Below, one piece after another: positions 23,230 through 31,037 of a DNA stretch of 40,596 nucleotides. Below the pieces are notes generated by a model. That model made no database searches. It was not told the DNA's origin and saw only the letters and a list, made by a program, of their open reading frames with translations. The position numbers were made by a program, and so were the translations under genes. This DNA comes from Desulfuromonadales bacterium (lineage in GTDB: Bacteria > Desulfobacterota > JAENJC01): assembly GCA_919902985.1 (NCBI GenBank), contig CAKKSC010000076.1, positions 1 to 40,596 on the forward strand. The letters run 5' to 3'. Each line of letters opens with the position of its first letter. Within the stretch, counting starts at the first letter, position 1.

Positions 23230-24240
23230 CTAATAGAAGAATGAAAGCCCGCCCTTCCACTTCGTCTCCTGACTGGAAAACTTTTGCAGGCTTTCTCCGT
23301 AACCGTCCCAGTATTGGACATACAGAAAAAAGTTTGTATACGGGATATTTTGGTGATAACCGATCTCGATTGAGCCTTTATCCCAGTCGCGGAATATCCG
23401 TGTCTTGAAATCCAACTGGTTATTCTTCAGCCATGCCATGTTAGACAAGTAAGGCAACTCTCTTATACTGAAACCGACCTCGCCTCTTCCGGCATAATCA
23501 AGAAACTTTTCGTTATGTCCTATAGATGTGAGATAGTCGTCCTGGTCTTCATATCCGTATGCCTGCCACAGTTTAAGGTAAGCCGAATACTTTTCCTTAC
23601 GGAGGACACCTTTTCCCTCCAGTTCGTTTTTTGCTTCAATTCCGAATGAGAAGAGGAGATAAAGCCTGTTCCAGCTTCTTGACTCTGCCCCGTCACGGCC
23701 GTTGGACTCATGTTCCCCGCCGATCACCACATGATCGAGGTATATACCGCTTCCTTTGACCTTGTAGTCAAGAAACAGTTCAGGGTTGTAGTTGTTCTCT
23801 TCAAACGGGGCCGAGGGTTTTCCGATATTCCAGAAAGACTTCTGGGTATAGGCCATATATAGTGGGAAATAGTCTCTTTTAAAGATATTAAGGCTCCCTT
23901 CGAATACTTGGTATTTGGCGCTTATCTGAAACTTTACCTGGGCGGCAGGATCGCCGGGGAGGCCGTTTGCGATAAAATAGTTGAGCTTGTGGGGCTGAAA
24001 ATCAAGACCAGGTTTTTCTGCTTCAGCCATTGGCTCCAGCAGTGCCCCCTTCATTTCCGCCCATATTGCCTCCTTTCCCCTTTTTGCGCTTTCATTTTCA
24101 TAGACATTCTGTATCGTCGCCTCCAGCTTTTCAAGCTCTTCAGTCGTAAACTGGCCAACTGCGCCGGCTCTTACTGGAAGTAAGATCAGGAATGCGCTCA
24201 GCAGGATCAACTGAATATTGAAAGCAGACATCATATTCAT
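23230..24240 (-). CDS. pldA: Outer-membrane phospholipase A (OMPLA)
   Basis: Outer-membrane beta-barrel phospholipase A1 that hydrolyses membrane phospholipids when activated by dimerisation and calcium. A signal peptide (IQLILLSAFLILLPVRAGA) is followed by a longer than usual N-terminal region and then the barrel with YTQKSFW. The catalytic residues are His177 and Ser179 in GGEHESNGRDG and Asn191 in SRSWNRLY. The His-Ser and Ser-Asn spacings (2 and 12) equal E. coli OMPLA (H142, S144, N156). The protein ends in aromatic residues (SFFY). Its ATG overlaps the stop of the upstream DUF900 gene (ATGA), so the two are coupled. Confidence 0.92.
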   Translation of the reverse strand: MNMMSAFNIQLILLSAFLILLPVRAGAVGQFTTEELEKLEATIQNVYENESAKRGKEAIWAEMKGALLEPMAEAEKPGLDFQPHKLNYFIANGLPGDPAAQVKFQISAKYQVFEGSLNIFKRDYFPLYMAYTQKSFWNIGKPSAPFEENNYNPELFLDYKVKGSGIYLDHVVIGGEHESNGRDGAESRSWNRLYLLFSFGIEAKNELEGKGVLRKEKYSAYLKLWQAYGYEDQDDYLTSIGHNEKFLDYAGRGEVGFSIRELPYLSNMAWLKNNQLDFKTRIFRDWDKGSIEIGYHQNIPYTNFFLYVQYWDGYGESLQKFSSQETKWKGGLSFFY

Positions 24241-25373
24241 TTCATAACCCAGACATTCGGCCCTTTGGGGCTGTGATCGCGCCGGCGCGCACTGAAATCG
24301 TGTGATACGCCGTCTATGCTCTGCCTTATGTCCTCATTCACCTTTCCCATCAGATAGTAACTGTGCTCTACCAGCCCTTGACCCTTCACCACAGGTGAAC
24401 AGTCTATCTGGTTGACCTTGTTGTGCAGCTGCATCGGTCTTGCCGCCCCTTTTGTCCCAAGTCTTTCAGGATTTCCCTTTGTATAGTCGGAGATATACAT
24501 CGCTTTGTCACCCTCATTGTGGTAGATGTTCACAAACCTCGCCAGCTCATGCACCCTCCCCATCTCCTTATCAGGCTCCAGGGCGTTGTCGTCCACGTCA
24601 GGGGCGCACATGAATATATGCTCGAAGACCCTCGGAAGGGCAGAGCCAGAGGTATGATCGTATATCCGCTCAATCGTATTCTGCAGAACGTAGTTCCCCA
24701 TAGAGTGGCAGAGAAGGTGAATATCCTGTCCGCAGAGGCCGCCGCCATCCTTCTTTAATGTCATGAGGAAGTCCCTGACCTTAAGCATCCCCCTGCCAAA
24801 GGCATACCCGGATGCCTGCGCCTCGGTCCTGTCCGATTTGTAGGAGACAAAAGGGAGGGCCATCCCGTCTGACGGCCAGGTAAACAAGATAACCAGAAGA
24901 TTCTGATCCGGGTCTTTTGTCGGCGAATTATTAAGCATCTCCTGAAGCGAAAGGGCGGAACCGACCGCCTCATGCCATGAGACATTGAAGCCGTGAATGT
25001 ATATGAGAACATCAGTCTTGTCCATCATCTCCTTTTTCAGGTCATCGAACATGGCAAGGGAACCGAGCTTCGCATCCTCCTGATGGATATCTGCGACATT
25101 AGGGTCGAGCTTCTCCCTATACGCCTCGATCTTCGCGCCCTTGGCCTGCTCAGTCAGGTAAGTTGCAAGGGACACCCCATCTCCAACTCCATAAGCGCCT
25201 TTCCTCTTATGATGCTTATCGATTACCTTTTCGTCCGCCGATAGGTTCAACCAGCCGAACCGGAGATTCTCCGCACCGTCATCGCTGAAGCTTTTCCCAT
25301 AAGATGTGGGTTGCCATCGGTCACTGCCTTCATGTTTTCGGTTTGTGGCGTAGTAAAGGGAAAGTGTTTTCAT
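24237..25373 (-). CDS. DUF900-type alpha/beta hydrolase
   Basis: The 378-residue product starts at MKTLSLYYATNR, where AGGAGG lies about 4 nt upstream; a 7-residue upstream extension is rejected for this reason. Features: LIYIHGFNVSWHEA (oxyanion region), FTWPSDG, the nucleophile elbow LLCHSMGNYVLQ with Ser224, CAPDVDD and a late His (VEHSYY). No signal peptide, so probably cytoplasmic. DUF900 members are esterases or lipases with unknown substrates. Fourth intact downstream member of the caspase cluster and coupled by overlap to pldA. A 111-bp gap with a GTCCCC-rich repeat separates it from the SPOR-like gene upstream. Confidence 0.82.
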   Translation of the reverse strand: MKTLSLYYATNRKHEGSDRWQPTSYGKSFSDDGAENLRFGWLNLSADEKVIDKHHKRKGAYGVGDGVSLATYLTEQAKGAKIEAYREKLDPNVADIHQEDAKLGSLAMFDDLKKEMMDKTDVLIYIHGFNVSWHEAVGSALSLQEMLNNSPTKDPDQNLLVILFTWPSDGMALPFVSYKSDRTEAQASGYAFGRGMLKVRDFLMTLKKDGGGLCGQDIHLLCHSMGNYVLQNTIERIYDHTSGSALPRVFEHIFMCAPDVDDNALEPDKEMGRVHELARFVNIYHNEGDKAMYISDYTKGNPERLGTKGAARPMQLHNKVNQIDCSPVVKGQGLVEHSYYLMGKVNEDIRQSIDGVSHDFSARRRDHSPKGPNVWVMK

Positions 25374-25455
25374 CCTGCCTCCTGAGATATTCAATAGATT
25401 TCAGCATCTATCCACTGGTATTTTATTATTGTAACGGACGTCCCAGCCAGTTCTT

Positions 25456-26293: not shown

Positions 26294-27100
26294 CTATCCT
26301 CTCGGATCTCTGGGAAGATAATGGCCTGTGGCTCTCTTATAGGCATCCGATGTGCGAGCACCGGGGACGCCGTCCACCTTTACGAACATCCCTGGAAAGG
26401 TATTAAGCCATCGCTGGAGTTCCCCAGCGCGCGACACCGACATTGGATCACTCGATTTCTTCAACGAATATCTGACAACGAGCGGCTTGGCATCTGGTTT
26501 AGGGATCGGCTGGTCTGCAAAGTCAATCTGGATGTTTTCCGCCATTCTTCTCAATAGAACCGCAGCGCCGCATTGTTTGGACACTGCCGTATCAGACCAG
26601 ATGCCGTCTGCTACAAACTTGCCGCTCGTATAATGATTTGAATAACTCCAGAGGTATGGCGAGAGGACATGCGGATGATAAAGGCGGTAGCCGAATCCGT
26701 TGTACCTTTCAAGTTGATAGAGCGTTCCCGAAAGGCTCCAATCGGTCTTTGAACTTAATCCCTTCAGCGAGAGGGCATCACTTGCACTTTCCTCCCATGT
26801 GAAGGGTGGGTCCCCGTTTTTTGGTCTTCCTGCAGGAGCCTGCACTGTGCGGCGAACGAGCGGGTCTCCATTATGAAGATGTTTCGTGAAATTGAGGCTT
26901 GACTCCATATTGTGGATCACGGCTGTAAAAAACCAGGGAACCCCAAGAATACTTTCGGCATTATTATAGCGTGCCGTATTTGCCTGTATTTTAGCGATAA
27001 TACCCTCAACCACCCCGGCTCGATTGTGCCGGATGACGCATGTATTAAACAAATTCTCATATTCATCACGCAATGCCTGGGATAGCTTTACAGTAGCCAC
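26294..27100 (-). CDS. Lysozyme-family (COG5526-like) muramidase with peptidoglycan-binding tail
   Basis: The 268-residue product starts at a GTG (27100) preceded by AGGAGGT. The catalytic-type domain (about 20-190) has GVPWFFTAVIHNMESSLNF, HLHNGDPLVRRTVQAPAGRP and FTWEESASDAL, then GFGYRLYHPHVLSPYLW, the pattern of the lysozyme family in COG5526. The likely acid is the Glu of HNMESS. The C-terminal 50 residues (AGELQRWLNTFPGMFVKVDG, then VPGARTSDAYKRATG) resemble a peptidoglycan-binding-domain repeat. No signal peptide is present, so reaching the wall would require membrane breach or a dedicated exporter. It follows the caspase genes in the same direction after an ORF6N insertion. Confidence 0.8.
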   Translation of the reverse strand: MATVKLSQALRDEYENLFNTCVIRHNRAGVVEGIIAKIQANTARYNNAESILGVPWFFTAVIHNMESSLNFTKHLHNGDPLVRRTVQAPAGRPKNGDPPFTWEESASDALSLKGLSSKTDWSLSGTLYQLERYNGFGYRLYHPHVLSPYLWSYSNHYTSGKFVADGIWSDTAVSKQCGAAVLLRRMAENIQIDFADQPIPKPDAKPLVVRYSLKKSSDPMSVSRAGELQRWLNTFPGMFVKVDGVPGARTSDAYKRATGHYLPRDPRG

Positions 27101-27196: not shown

Positions 27197-27347
27197 CCGC
27201 ACATTTAACTCTGTGCTTCATACATCAACCCTCTCCTCTCCTCTCCTCTCCTCGCCTCGCTTTGCCGCCCTTAACGCCCCCTGGCCTTTTCATAACTCCC
27301 CTCAATCTACCCACGGTCCATAAACCCTCTTACCTTAAGAGGCAAGC

Positions 27348-27770
27348 TCAAAACCCTATCTTCTTCTTTTTCGGTTCGGGTGCCACCATCAATTGCCTGA
27401 TCGCATCAAAGACCCCTTTAAACTGAGAATCATACTTCTTCTCCATTTCGTCCAGCCTCTTTGCCAATTCTTTGTTGGAGGCCAGCATCTCCCTGAGACG
27501 GACAAAGGCCCGCATTATGGCTATATTTGCCTGTACCGCCCTTGGGCTTTTGAGAATGCCGGAAAGCATTGCAACGCCTTGCTCTGTAAAGACCATTACG
27601 CTCTTTGAGAATTTCAATGTTTCCGTATCATGCACTGCCGAGGATATCACAATTTGTGATATCCTCATTATCTCATCACGAGTCAATGAAAACATGAAGT
27701 CCTCCGGAAACCTTTCAATGTTCCGGCGAACAGCCTGGTTTAACGCCCTGGACAAAATAAAGGGGACCAA
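27348..27770 (-). pseudogene. N-terminally truncated ORF6N-family gene
   Basis: Homology to the intact ORF6N gene at 30534-31037 begins at about 27746 (RALNQAVRRNIERFPEDFMF) and continues to the shared end PEPKKKKIGF. The first ~35 residues of the domain (VMFDKDLAELYGVET region) are replaced by sequence derived from the GGTCCCC/GGGGACAG repeats. The ATG at 27770 lies in that repeat sequence and has no ribosome site. A reduced protein might be made, but the gene is probably inactive. Codon and sequence differences from the 30.5-kb copy show it is a diverged paralogue, not a recent duplicate. Confidence 0.8.
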
Positions 27771-27811: not shown

Positions 27812-27882
27812 AATCCTCTCACTGCCTTGCTTTGCTACCCTTAACGCTCTCTGGCCTTTTCATAACTCCCCACCATTGCCCC

Positions 27883-28713
27883 TTAAACCATCTTCCCCTT
27901 CCTCTTCGTCGCCTCGCACTCCAACTGCGGTACCTGGGTGTACTTCTCCTTTTTCAGGTCACCGCGGACCTTTTCAACCAGCTGTTTGCGCGTAAGCTTG
28001 TTTTTGCTGCCTCTTATTCCCTTGCAAAGATAGTAGGTAAATGCACCGTGCCATGTTTTGCCAATCTTGGCGTCTGCGCTGGTCTGGTCGGAACGGCAGC
28101 CGGTCCAGAGGACGTGGTGGGTTATCCCTTTATCCAAAAGCGCCCTGCTCAGGCCTCTTGAAGAACGTCCCTCCACTTCTTCAAAGGCAGCAAGGGACGG
28201 CGGAGGAAGATATCTTGGCCTCCTTGTAAGGAGGAAATCTATTGCCTTCAGTCCTGTGCCGCTGTGGCATGTATCGAGATAGACTTCGAGAAGGACCTCC
28301 TTCGGGAGTTGAATGAACAGGTCATGCAGTTCGTCGTCGGTGATTATGTATTTGGAATCCCATTGCCCGTTCTTTTCGGCCAGGTCATGAGGGCAGAATG
28401 CCTCGTCGGCGTTATCAGGTTCGTCTCCACTGATGTCGGGGACCTGTGTTCCGTGGCTCGAAAGGCTGAAGACTATATGGCCGAGCCTCCCTGCCTTGGC
28501 ATCCTTCACCATCGCCTTGAGGTTGTTTATGATGTTTTCTTTGGTCGCCTTGGCATCGGTCAGGATGGTTATATCCTTTTTGATAAAACCGAGGAACTCC
28601 TGAAGCACCGAAGACATGTCGTTGGCGTCATTGATGCAACCCTGCAATGCCGCATCCGGATAGTTTTTAAACTTGTTGATCCCTACACAAAGCGCTTTTC
28701 TGTTGTTTGCCAT
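27883..28713 (-). CDS. Caspase-family (peptidase C14/metacaspase-like) protease
   Basis: A 276-residue stand-alone caspase-like cysteine protease. It opens KALCVGINKFKNYPDAALQG (the standard p20 start), has the catalytic His87 in LSSHGTQVPD and Cys149 in DTCHSGTG. A DEAFCPHDL segment contributes the acidic pocket typical of the Arg/Lys-specific metacaspase side. No signal peptide. AAGGAGG precedes the ATG and only 11 bp separate it from the upstream hydrolase-caspase gene, so they are co-translated. Bacterial caspases often act as activators of effectors in conflict or death modules. The likely targets here are inferred from the neighbours, not shown. Confidence 0.9.
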   Translation of the reverse strand: MANNRKALCVGINKFKNYPDAALQGCINDANDMSSVLQEFLGFIKKDITILTDAKATKENIINNLKAMVKDAKAGRLGHIVFSLSSHGTQVPDISGDEPDNADEAFCPHDLAEKNGQWDSKYIITDDELHDLFIQLPKEVLLEVYLDTCHSGTGLKAIDFLLTRRPRYLPPPSLAAFEEVEGRSSRGLSRALLDKGITHHVLWTGCRSDQTSADAKIGKTWHGAFTYYLCKGIRGSKNKLTRKQLVEKVRGDLKKEKYTQVPQLECEATKRKGKMV

Positions 28714-28724
28714 TTGCTTCCTCC

Positions 28725-30464
28725 TTATTTTATGAATTTCAGCGGTTCATTTCTCTTTGATTTCGGACATACCAGCATAGGGGTCTGATGGAACTTCAAT
28801 TCATCCTTCAACAAGGTCTCCGCCTCTTCAATCAGGGTACTGAAGGTGAAAGGCTTCTTGTTCTTGCCACCCTTTCTTCTCCTGAAGGTGTTCACCAGGC
28901 AATACGTGAACGCACCATACGAAAGGGCGCCGTGCCGGTATTCATGGGCGAACTGGTCTTCCCTGCACGCCTCCATGAGGATCGGCATATACGGACCGTG
29001 GTGGCCGTATGCCTTCTTGGCCTTTTCAAAAACCTCATGATCGGACCACAAGGACACTGCCCGTCCCAACTTCTTAGCTGCCCCCGAACCTCCAAGCCAT
29101 GCCTTCTTTTCCTCATCGGAGGCAGTAAGCTCTTTCTTTGCCAGCCCCAGCTCCCTGGGGAACCACATCTTCTTCTTTGAGTCCCACCGGAGGGACCTGT
29201 GTCTTATGTCGTCGGGAGGGTCGACACCCCTTACCCGAAGGGAGCCGTTCCGCGTCATCCCGCCGGAGTGGCAACAGTCGAGGATGGCTATGAAGTTGGC
29301 ATCGTAGGGCAACTGGCTGTACAGTTTGTGGAACTGGTCGTCAGTGACGGCCCTTTCAAGAGACCAGTCAAAGTCGTGGGGGACAAGACATTCATCCAGA
29401 TGATCCGCCTCCTGGGCGGCACCATAACCTGGTATCTGAGTCCCGTGTCCGCTGTAAAAGAAGAAGCGGGCATCATCCTTCCCTGCCCCTTCCAGCAGCC
29501 ATTCCAATCTTTCAAGTATCCCTTTTGCAGTGGCCCTGTCGTTCAATACAACGCGGATGTCGTCGGGTTCAAACCCGATCTCCTGCAGCGCCTCGCTCAT
29601 GAGATAGACGTCGTTGACGCACCCTTCCAGCCTCATGGCCGGGTTGGGATACTCGTTGATCCCCACCAGAAGGGCTCGTTTCACCGGTTTTTTCTTCGAT
29701 GCCTTTTTCCATTTATCAATCGATCTGACGATGGTCTCAGGTTCGCCCTTTACGATAGGTTTCCAGACCTGGTCCCGCACCGCGGCATGGCTGAGATATG
29801 AAACCGCATCATGGTCAAGCATACCGGGAATGTCAAAATATGTGCTCACCTGCTTAAACCTGTCTGAGTCCAGGCTAATGGGCGCGGCAAATGCTGCATC
29901 CTCGCTGTTGTAGAGGTGATACCATTTTACTGCTGATTTTAGTTCGATGACCCTCCCTCCGAAAACGGACCGGACGAAGGGATTGCCGATCTGCGATCCA
30001 TAGGTCACGTAGTGTCTGCCTTCTATCATTTTTGCGTTGGAGGCGAATAGGTCATATGAGAGGAGGGAGCCGAGACTATGTGCACACACAACGTTGGGGT
30101 CGAATTCATTCACCTTCTCAGACAGTTTTTCTCGGAGCTTTTCCCTTAACTTTTCATCTGCTGTCCACTGGGCCACCATCCCGGCTGTCCAGCGAAGGTC
30201 GTCGGCAAAACCCCTTCTTCCCGTTATGAAGTCCCCAATGCCGTGATATACTCCACTTGCCATGAGCCTGGCCATGGCCTCGGCCACTACGGCCGTGTCA
30301 ATCTTTGCCTCTGAAAATAATCTGTCATATTGAAATATATCAAATTCCAGGGCTGTGTCTGGATCAAGTGAGGAAACAGCGTCCATGATAGCCTTTTCCC
30401 ATTCCTCATGCCATGACTGATCAGCCTCCGTGTGCCCTACACCGTGAATAAGAAGAATTTTCAT
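28725..30464 (-). CDS. Alpha/beta-hydrolase fused to a caspase-family protease
   Basis: A 579-residue two-domain protein. Residues 1 to about 250 form an alpha/beta hydrolase: MKILLIHGVGHTEADQSWHE (oxyanion start), a nucleophile elbow CAHSLGSLLSYD with Ser130, and a late LDHDAVSYLSH with a possible catalytic His. Residues about 265-579 are a caspase p20-like domain. It has KRALLVGINEYPNPAMRLEG, His340 in YSGHGTQIP and Cys398 in LDCCHSGG, plus a long insertion after the Cys. The second caspase follows 11 bp later. A GGAG ribosome site precedes the ATG. No signal peptide or membrane helix. Fusion of a lipase/esterase-like domain to a protease is the most distinctive architecture in the window. 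Domain calls are firm; substrates are unknown. Confidence 0.88.
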   Translation of the reverse strand: MKILLIHGVGHTEADQSWHEEWEKAIMDAVSSLDPDTALEFDIFQYDRLFSEAKIDTAVVAEAMARLMASGVYHGIGDFITGRRGFADDLRWTAGMVAQWTADEKLREKLREKLSEKVNEFDPNVVCAHSLGSLLSYDLFASNAKMIEGRHYVTYGSQIGNPFVRSVFGGRVIELKSAVKWYHLYNSEDAAFAAPISLDSDRFKQVSTYFDIPGMLDHDAVSYLSHAAVRDQVWKPIVKGEPETIVRSIDKWKKASKKKPVKRALLVGINEYPNPAMRLEGCVNDVYLMSEALQEIGFEPDDIRVVLNDRATAKGILERLEWLLEGAGKDDARFFFYSGHGTQIPGYGAAQEADHLDECLVPHDFDWSLERAVTDDQFHKLYSQLPYDANFIAILDCCHSGGMTRNGSLRVRGVDPPDDIRHRSLRWDSKKKMWFPRELGLAKKELTASDEEKKAWLGGSGAAKKLGRAVSLWSDHEVFEKAKKAYGHHGPYMPILMEACREDQFAHEYRHGALSYGAFTYCLVNTFRRRKGGKNKKPFTFSTLIEEAETLLKDELKFHQTPMLVCPKSKRNEPLKFIK

Positions 30465-30533: not shown

Positions 30534-31037
30534 TCAAAACCCAATCTTCTTCTTTTTCGGTTCCGGTGACGCCATCAATTGCCTGATGGCATCAAAGACC
30601 CCCTTGAACTGAGAATCGTATTTCTTCTCCATCTCATCCAGTCTCTTTGCCAATTCTTTGTTGGAGGCCAGCATCTCCCGGAGTTTCGTGAAGGTCCTCA
30701 TAATCTGGATGTTTACCCTGATGGCCCTTTCGCTGTTAAGGACACTGGAAAGCATGGCAACTCCATTTTCTGTAAACACACGGGGCAACTTTCGAGTGCC
30801 GCCCCAACTTGATCTTCCAAAATGGAATATCAAGTTTTGAAACTCTTCTTTTGTTAACTGAAACATGAAATCATCAGGGAACCGCTCGATGTTTCTGTTG
30901 ACGGCCTTATTGAGGTTTCCTGTTTCCACCCCATAAAGCTCTGCCAGGTCTTTGTCAAACATAACCTTCTTACCCTGCACAAGGAATATCTTGTTTTCAA
31001 TTACCTCCGACTGCATTAATAGGGCATTTTTAGTCAT
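30534..31037 (-). CDS. ORF6N-domain protein (intact)
   Basis: A 167-residue protein with the ORF6N domain at the N-terminus (VMFDKDLAELYGVETGNLNK, then NIERFPDDFMFQLT) and an alpha-helical coiled tail (NKELAKRLDEMEKKYDSQF) ending PEPKKKKIGF. ORF6N proteins occur on phages and mobile elements and are thought to bind DNA through a KilA-N/Bro-N-like fold. GAGGGGG precedes the ATG. It lies 69 bp upstream of the hydrolase-caspase gene in the same direction, so it could regulate or be carried with that cluster. Only intact member of three copies in the window. Confidence 0.88.
   Translation of the reverse strand: MTKNALLMQSEVIENKIFLVQGKKVMFDKDLAELYGVETGNLNKAVNRNIERFPDDFMFQLTKEEFQNLIFHFGRSSWGGTRKLPRVFTENGVAMLSSVLNSERAIRVNIQIMRTFTKLREMLASNKELAKRLDEMEKKYDSQFKGVFDAIRQLMASPEPKKKKIGF

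Follow-up and report, generated by a model that had tools for sequence, protein, structure and literature searches.

A caspase-type protease and an alpha/beta-hydrolase, which in other bacteria are usually encoded by two adjacent genes, are joined in one polypeptide chain in the 40,596-nucleotide stretch of DNA analysed here (the window). The fusion, its intact catalytic residues, a two-gene operon layout, protease neighbours recurring beside relatives of the hydrolase and a variable genomic site can be read from the DNA, and the fusion points to a self-contained module for killing or defence that is controlled by its protease. In the reading that we prefer, to which we give about an even chance of being right, the protein is the single-chain form of a recurrent protease-hydrolase pair, in which the hydrolase released by the caspase would be the killing or growth-arrest effector of a conflict or abortive-infection system, probably an anti-phage one.

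The boundaries originally predicted for the fused gene are exact, and its strand, which had been left out, is minus (Table 1). The start codon (CAGGAGCTGATATATG) is preceded by a good ribosome-binding site. No signal peptide is apparent, and strand beta-1 of the hydrolase starts from residue 2 in the AlphaFold2 model. The residues first singled out as catalytic were verified at their positions (S130 in CAHSLGS, H340 in SGHGTQ and C398 in DCCHSG), and the basic stretch KKASKKKPVK occupies residues 253-262.

Table 1. Coordinates in the window of the fused gene, its parts and the neighbouring genes
Feature	Positions	Strand	Size or residues	Basis or remark
Fused alpha/beta-hydrolase - metacaspase	28725..30464	minus	579 aa	
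Alpha/beta-hydrolase domain	29745..30464	minus	residues 1-240	homologues, triad invariance, AlphaFold2 core
Triad codon S130	30075-30077	minus		
Triad codon D189	29898-29900	minus		
Triad codon H218	29811-29813	minus		
Lys/Arg-rich linker (KWKKASKKKPVKR)	29676..29714	minus	residues 251-263	K/R count, low model confidence
Caspase p20 part	29250..29681	minus	residues 262-405	Pfam, alignments, model, structure matches
Catalytic codon H340	29445-29447	minus		
Catalytic codon C398	29271-29273	minus		
Long flexible p20-p10 loop	28986..29249	minus	residues 406-493	possible maturation cleavage site
Caspase p10 part	28728..28985	minus	residues 494-579	Pfam, alignment, model
Stand-alone metacaspase gene	27883..28713	minus	276 aa	Pfam C14 E 1.4e-30, dyad residues
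ORF6N-domain gene, anti-repressor-like, upstream of cassette	30534..31037	minus		Pfam, PHROGs
Second ORF6N gene, downstream of cassette	27348..27770	minus		Pfam, repeat comparison

The N-terminal hydrolase domain of the original prediction is real. Homologues of this domain were found on plasmids by tblastn (best E 1e-6, S. terangae), and S130, D189 and H218 form a complete Ser-Asp-His triad in the right order, invariant in all 32 aligned homologues, as are H7, G8, H129, G132 and Y223. Using an alignment with 11 viral-contig homologues, AlphaFold2 predicts a confident beta-alpha-beta core (pLDDT up to 95) with a nucleophile elbow at S130, made of strand 125-129 and helix 131-142. Pfam gives no match at all for residues 1-255 of the fused protein, the domain has no alpha/beta-hydrolase match in Pfam, NCBIfam, PADLOC or PHROGs, and its homologues match Abhydrolase_6/PGAP1 below cut-off only; the missing curated-family match reflects the limited sensitivity of the libraries, not a weakness of the evidence for the fold. 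Foldseek searches with the full chain returned mostly spurious two-domain matches, APT1 and BioH3 appearing only at E 0.04-0.05. On sequence and model grounds, the domain is a diverged alpha/beta-hydrolase with a full catalytic triad. The divergence is strong: its branch length in the tree is 4.35, a long-branch problem that affects its placement, and it differs from the family consensus at Q158, H183 and N186. H7 and S130 are separated by 122 residues, compared with 161-197 in the protease-paired homologues, i.e., about 40-75 residues fewer. Because this segment is shorter, a gating feature of the protease-paired homologues may be missing from the window hydrolase.

Pfam Peptidase_C14 matches residues 262-566 of the fused protein (E 3.5e-31). 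The caspase dyad predicted earlier is complete, and H340, C398 and the S1 acids D285 and D396 are invariant in 40/40 caspase relatives. Alignment rows mixing hydrolase-only and caspase-only sequences were misregistered, so that only hydrolase rows went into the full-chain model; the caspase half of this model is unreliable and the caspase domain was modelled separately. The resulting AlphaFold2 model adopts a metacaspase fold (pLDDT 80.6), and its best PDB structural matches are Arabidopsis thaliana MC9 and MC4 (E about 1e-18 to 1e-16), MC9 also being the closest solved structure by sequence. Residues C92, D95, S156 and D211 of Trypanosoma brucei MCA2 were reported to bind substrate (PMC4357240), and C282, D285, S338 and D396 of the fused protein align with them. 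Since all four of these S1-pocket residues are kept, the metacaspase-type Arg/Lys specificity that had been proposed is likely.

The original interpretation stands in part: the two domains with their catalytic residues, the likely Arg/Lys preference and the recurrence of hydrolase-protease coupling are supported, and self-cleavage of the chain at its Lys-rich linker is possible. No other stretch of the chain is locally as rich in K+R as the linker (8/13), which is of low confidence in both AlphaFold2 models (full chain and caspase alone). Residues 525-540 are nearly as basic (7/13 K/R), and basicity alone consequently does not single out the linker. In (meta)caspases, maturation conventionally involves cleavage within the p20-p10 loop. 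This loop counts 101 residues in the fused protein, 20 of which are K/R, against 45-78 residues in 36 of the 40 caspase relatives; it is also longer than in the nearest relatives from the phylum and has a pLDDT of 36-65 over most of its length in the caspase model. The linker hence appears to be a plausible but not a privileged cleavage site, the p20-p10 loop being the more conventional one.

The start (AAATAAGGAGGAAGCAAATG) of a second metacaspase gene lies 11 nt after the stop codon of the fused ORF, behind AAGGAGG. Based on this short spacing and the strong ribosome-binding site, both genes probably form an operon. The second metacaspase resembles that of locus L016, and because the two metacaspases apparently belong to different subgroups, they are not a recent tandem duplication. 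Two ORF6N genes flank this cassette, and the 3' part of the downstream one repeats 151 nt of the upstream one in direct orientation (91%). A 63-nt direct repeat (84%; 27244-27306 and 27814-27876) flanks the downstream ORF6N gene, and a related copy lies near 2153-2241 of contig G096:C219 in a sister genome. In the sister genome G096, the space between dnaK and the DUF900 gene is taken by toxin-antitoxin genes, a CopG-type antitoxin gene and a UPF0175/DUF3368 pair, in place of the cassette, and the genes upstream of dnaK are different again in genome G061. Over the three genomes compared, the dnaK-side interval varies in content, the pattern expected of a site that holds conflict cassettes.

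Other genes of the window and of the same genome were also recorded. The DUF900 gene, itself coding for an alpha/beta-hydrolase and 93% identical at the DNA level in G096, overlaps a phospholipase A1 (PLA1) gene by 4 nt (23230-25394, minus strand). A 268-aa ORF (26294-27100, minus strand) has no family match and by eye is lysozyme-like with a peptidoglycan-binding-like C-terminus. Elsewhere, the same genome encodes a third caspase of 502 aa (G000:C7:12854-13312; L003), a similar copy of which is found in G096, of the same genus.

No fused homologue was detected in 297 genomes of the phylum searched with the full protein, 55 of which gave a match. Likewise, plasmid records, phage records and 80 metacaspases from viral contigs yielded no metacaspase-hydrolase fusion, although the supplementary tables of Kaur et al. 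2020 may list one. The genome itself contains neither a further fused copy nor, using a profile of the window domain and eight homologues, a second copy of the hydrolase. Absence of the hydrolase domain from close homologues had been named at the outset as evidence against the idea, and the close caspase relatives examined in the phylum are indeed stand-alone and do not lie beside a hydrolase of this family. This absence is a poor test of the coupling, because the pairing of hydrolase and protease is conserved between separate genes. Stand-alone metacaspase-like C14 proteins also occur on at least 80 IMG/VR viral contigs (L120-L199), with a His-Cys dyad that is invariant where aligned, and in two families of the phylum (L112, L113) stand-alone metacaspase genes lie beside what by eye is a NusG/RfaH-like gene.

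On plasmids and viral contigs, the family of the window hydrolase occurs as a separate gene directly beside a protease gene. It adjoins a caspase gene in 12 loci, a set selected by similarity in which several loci are from related Rhizobiaceae: S. terangae, S. fredii GR64, R. ruizarguesonis, Sinorhizobium M14, Bradyrhizobium, S. chiapasense, S. meliloti (own profile only), Agrobacterium, Hymenobacter, Leptolyngbya and two prophage-like contigs. In Actinobacteria, the family is found beside caspase-NTPase-WD40 proteins, three of them profile-confirmed (two from Streptomyces, one from a viral contig); at L045, L104 and L107 this partner was assigned by reading alone. The partner is a CHAT protease in S. 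fredii NXT3 and a trypsin in R. etli and Sinorhizobium K101. A plasmid of Streptomyces jietaisiensis (NZ_CP108340.1, L099:3912-5900) encodes a Trypsin_2 domain and a hydrolase of the same family in one chain, a fusion independent of that in the window; an S8 peptidase gene lies near it. A Streptomyces VMAP-MoxR operon (L100) carries a member of the family as well. The predicted coupling thus recurs in other bacteria, through caspase, CHAT and trypsin neighbours and one trypsin fusion.

Most family members with no protease neighbour are single genes on phage contigs or belong to a separate chromosomal subfamily in the phylum of the window. The lone members were seen on contigs L042, L047, L204 and L210-L213, some of them among tail- or lysis-region genes. 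For some 20 alpha/beta-hydrolase loci of more distant kinship, no caspase ORF was found up to about 1.5 kb away. A weak match to the N-terminal domain in genome G073 (E 3.6e-5) was rejected as a different alpha/beta-hydrolase with no protease neighbour in the stretch read. Lamassu-type systems include hydrolase/protease subtypes; LmuA matched the trypsin partners only, and weakly.

In the following scheme we infer which enzyme controls the other, where the chain is cut, what the hydrolase acts on and that the module serves in defence. A cytosolic, Arg/Lys-specific metacaspase would be coupled to a serine alpha/beta-hydrolase of the esterase/lipase type, which would be kept inactive or mis-targeted as long as the caspase is not active. 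Either an upstream trigger or the second metacaspase of the operon would switch on the caspase, the chain would be proteolysed at the basic interdomain linker and/or in the p20-p10 loop, and the freed hydrolase would attack membrane lipids or another ester. By analogy with the pairs of Kaur et al. 2020 and with protease-activated pro-nucleases, it is most likely that the caspase licenses the hydrolase, either in cis or in trans through the second metacaspase. Several points speak against this scheme: there is one fused example, the hydrolase is strongly diverged and its H7-S130 segment is shortened, the family has protease-less members, no VMAP scores above cut-off and the closest caspases are not near a family hydrolase.

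The window hydrolase lacks the long segment that could be a gating insertion, as would suit a dual effector, i.e., a hydrolase and a caspase that are both weapons answering a common trigger with no need for cleavage between them. Kaur et al. (PMC7159879) also have peptidase and hydrolase acting together in an order that is not fixed. We nevertheless regard a dual effector as unlikely: what the partners from several distinct families (caspase, CHAT, trypsin) have in common is proteolysis, pointing to the hydrolase as its target, and the parallel pro-nuclease/protease pairs work through cleavage (PMC12799240). Somewhat less likely again is an initiator-executioner pair within one operon, in which the stand-alone metacaspase would cut and activate the fused protein. 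The presence of two different metacaspases, apparently of differing subgroups, at 11-nt spacing fits such a pair, which is compatible with licensing of the hydrolase by the caspase and could be a detail thereof. The 101-residue p20-p10 loop, lying with its 20 K/R at the conventional maturation cut position, would also agree with the hydrolase domain being a sensor or targeting module (e.g., binding membrane lipids), the caspase the sole effector and this loop the sole maturation site; we consider this improbable, as the full S-D-H triad is kept despite extreme divergence elsewhere, which argues that hydrolysis itself is selected. Chance joining of a housekeeping PGAP1-like hydrolase to a functionally unrelated metacaspase agrees with the single fused example and the stand-alone caspase relatives, but is very hard to credit given the same pairing as adjacent genes in Alphaproteobacteria, Bacteroidota, Cyanobacteria and Actinobacteria, the independent protease-hydrolase fusion in Streptomyces and the catalytic residues kept by both window domains.

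Licensing of the hydrolase by the caspase, our preferred reading, would have a wider bearing. Joint action of bacterial caspase/alpha-beta-hydrolase neighbourhoods has been predicted since 2020, and the papers that we found contain no test of it. With both enzymes keeping their catalytic residues in one chain and a second metacaspase adjacent, the coupling could be probed with two mutants (S130A and C398A). Viewed alongside the versions with trypsin, CHAT and fused trypsin, the fusion suggests that protease gating may reach beyond nucleases to a serine hydrolase family. We put forward, as a tentative extension, that this pro-hydrolase family, which has no Pfam match above cut-off and is missing from PADLOC and PHROGs, may be a general immune effector repeatedly adopted by caspase, CHAT, trypsin and NTPase-WD40 sensors, with the self-contained window form activating itself by cleavage. 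If true, the family would parallel the protease-gated nucleases but cut lipids or esters.

Kaur et al. 2020 reported that the caspase domain of VMAP systems always has a neighbouring alpha/beta-hydrolase gene and suggested that both operate jointly (PMC7159879). The window shares with these VMAP/MoxR-vWA ternary systems a caspase-fold peptidase genetically coupled to an alpha/beta-hydrolase, but differs in having both on one polypeptide, a metacaspase-type domain and a second metacaspase as operon partner. There is no VMAP or MoxR gene on the window contig; as the VMAP-M2 model scored only below cut-off, on another contig, and MoxR was likewise found on another contig, membership of these systems was rejected. 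In Hachiman, AVAST and Canu, as a 2025 study showed, pro-nucleases become active through their trypsin and caspase partners (PMC12799240). As in the window, these pairs consist of a protease and a second enzyme, in a module shared between systems, and the protease of Canu is a caspase. Unlike them, the window protein combines its protease with a serine alpha/beta-hydrolase instead of an MBL nuclease, the two are fused, and activation of the hydrolase is proposed by analogy; the neighbours on the contig being ORF6N, caspase and hydrolase, no MBL-fold nuclease (CanC) lies beside the window caspase. The window caspase matches the model of EACC1-associated caspases (NF047832, E 6e-13) far under its cut-off (48.7 vs 140 bits), and no EACC1 partner was identified for it. 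The H-C dyad, the S1 residues and the p20-p10 organisation are common to A. thaliana MC9/MC4, T. brucei MCA2 and the window protein, which differs in being bacterial and in bearing an N-terminal hydrolase domain. The pairing of caspase and alpha/beta-hydrolase was already known (Kaur et al. 2020); no other single-chain metacaspase version was found in the records searched. The S. jietaisiensis fusion (WP_331725097.1) likewise joins a hydrolase of the same family to a protease in one chain, although there the protease is a Trypsin_2 domain and N-terminal, and the hydrolase C-terminal.
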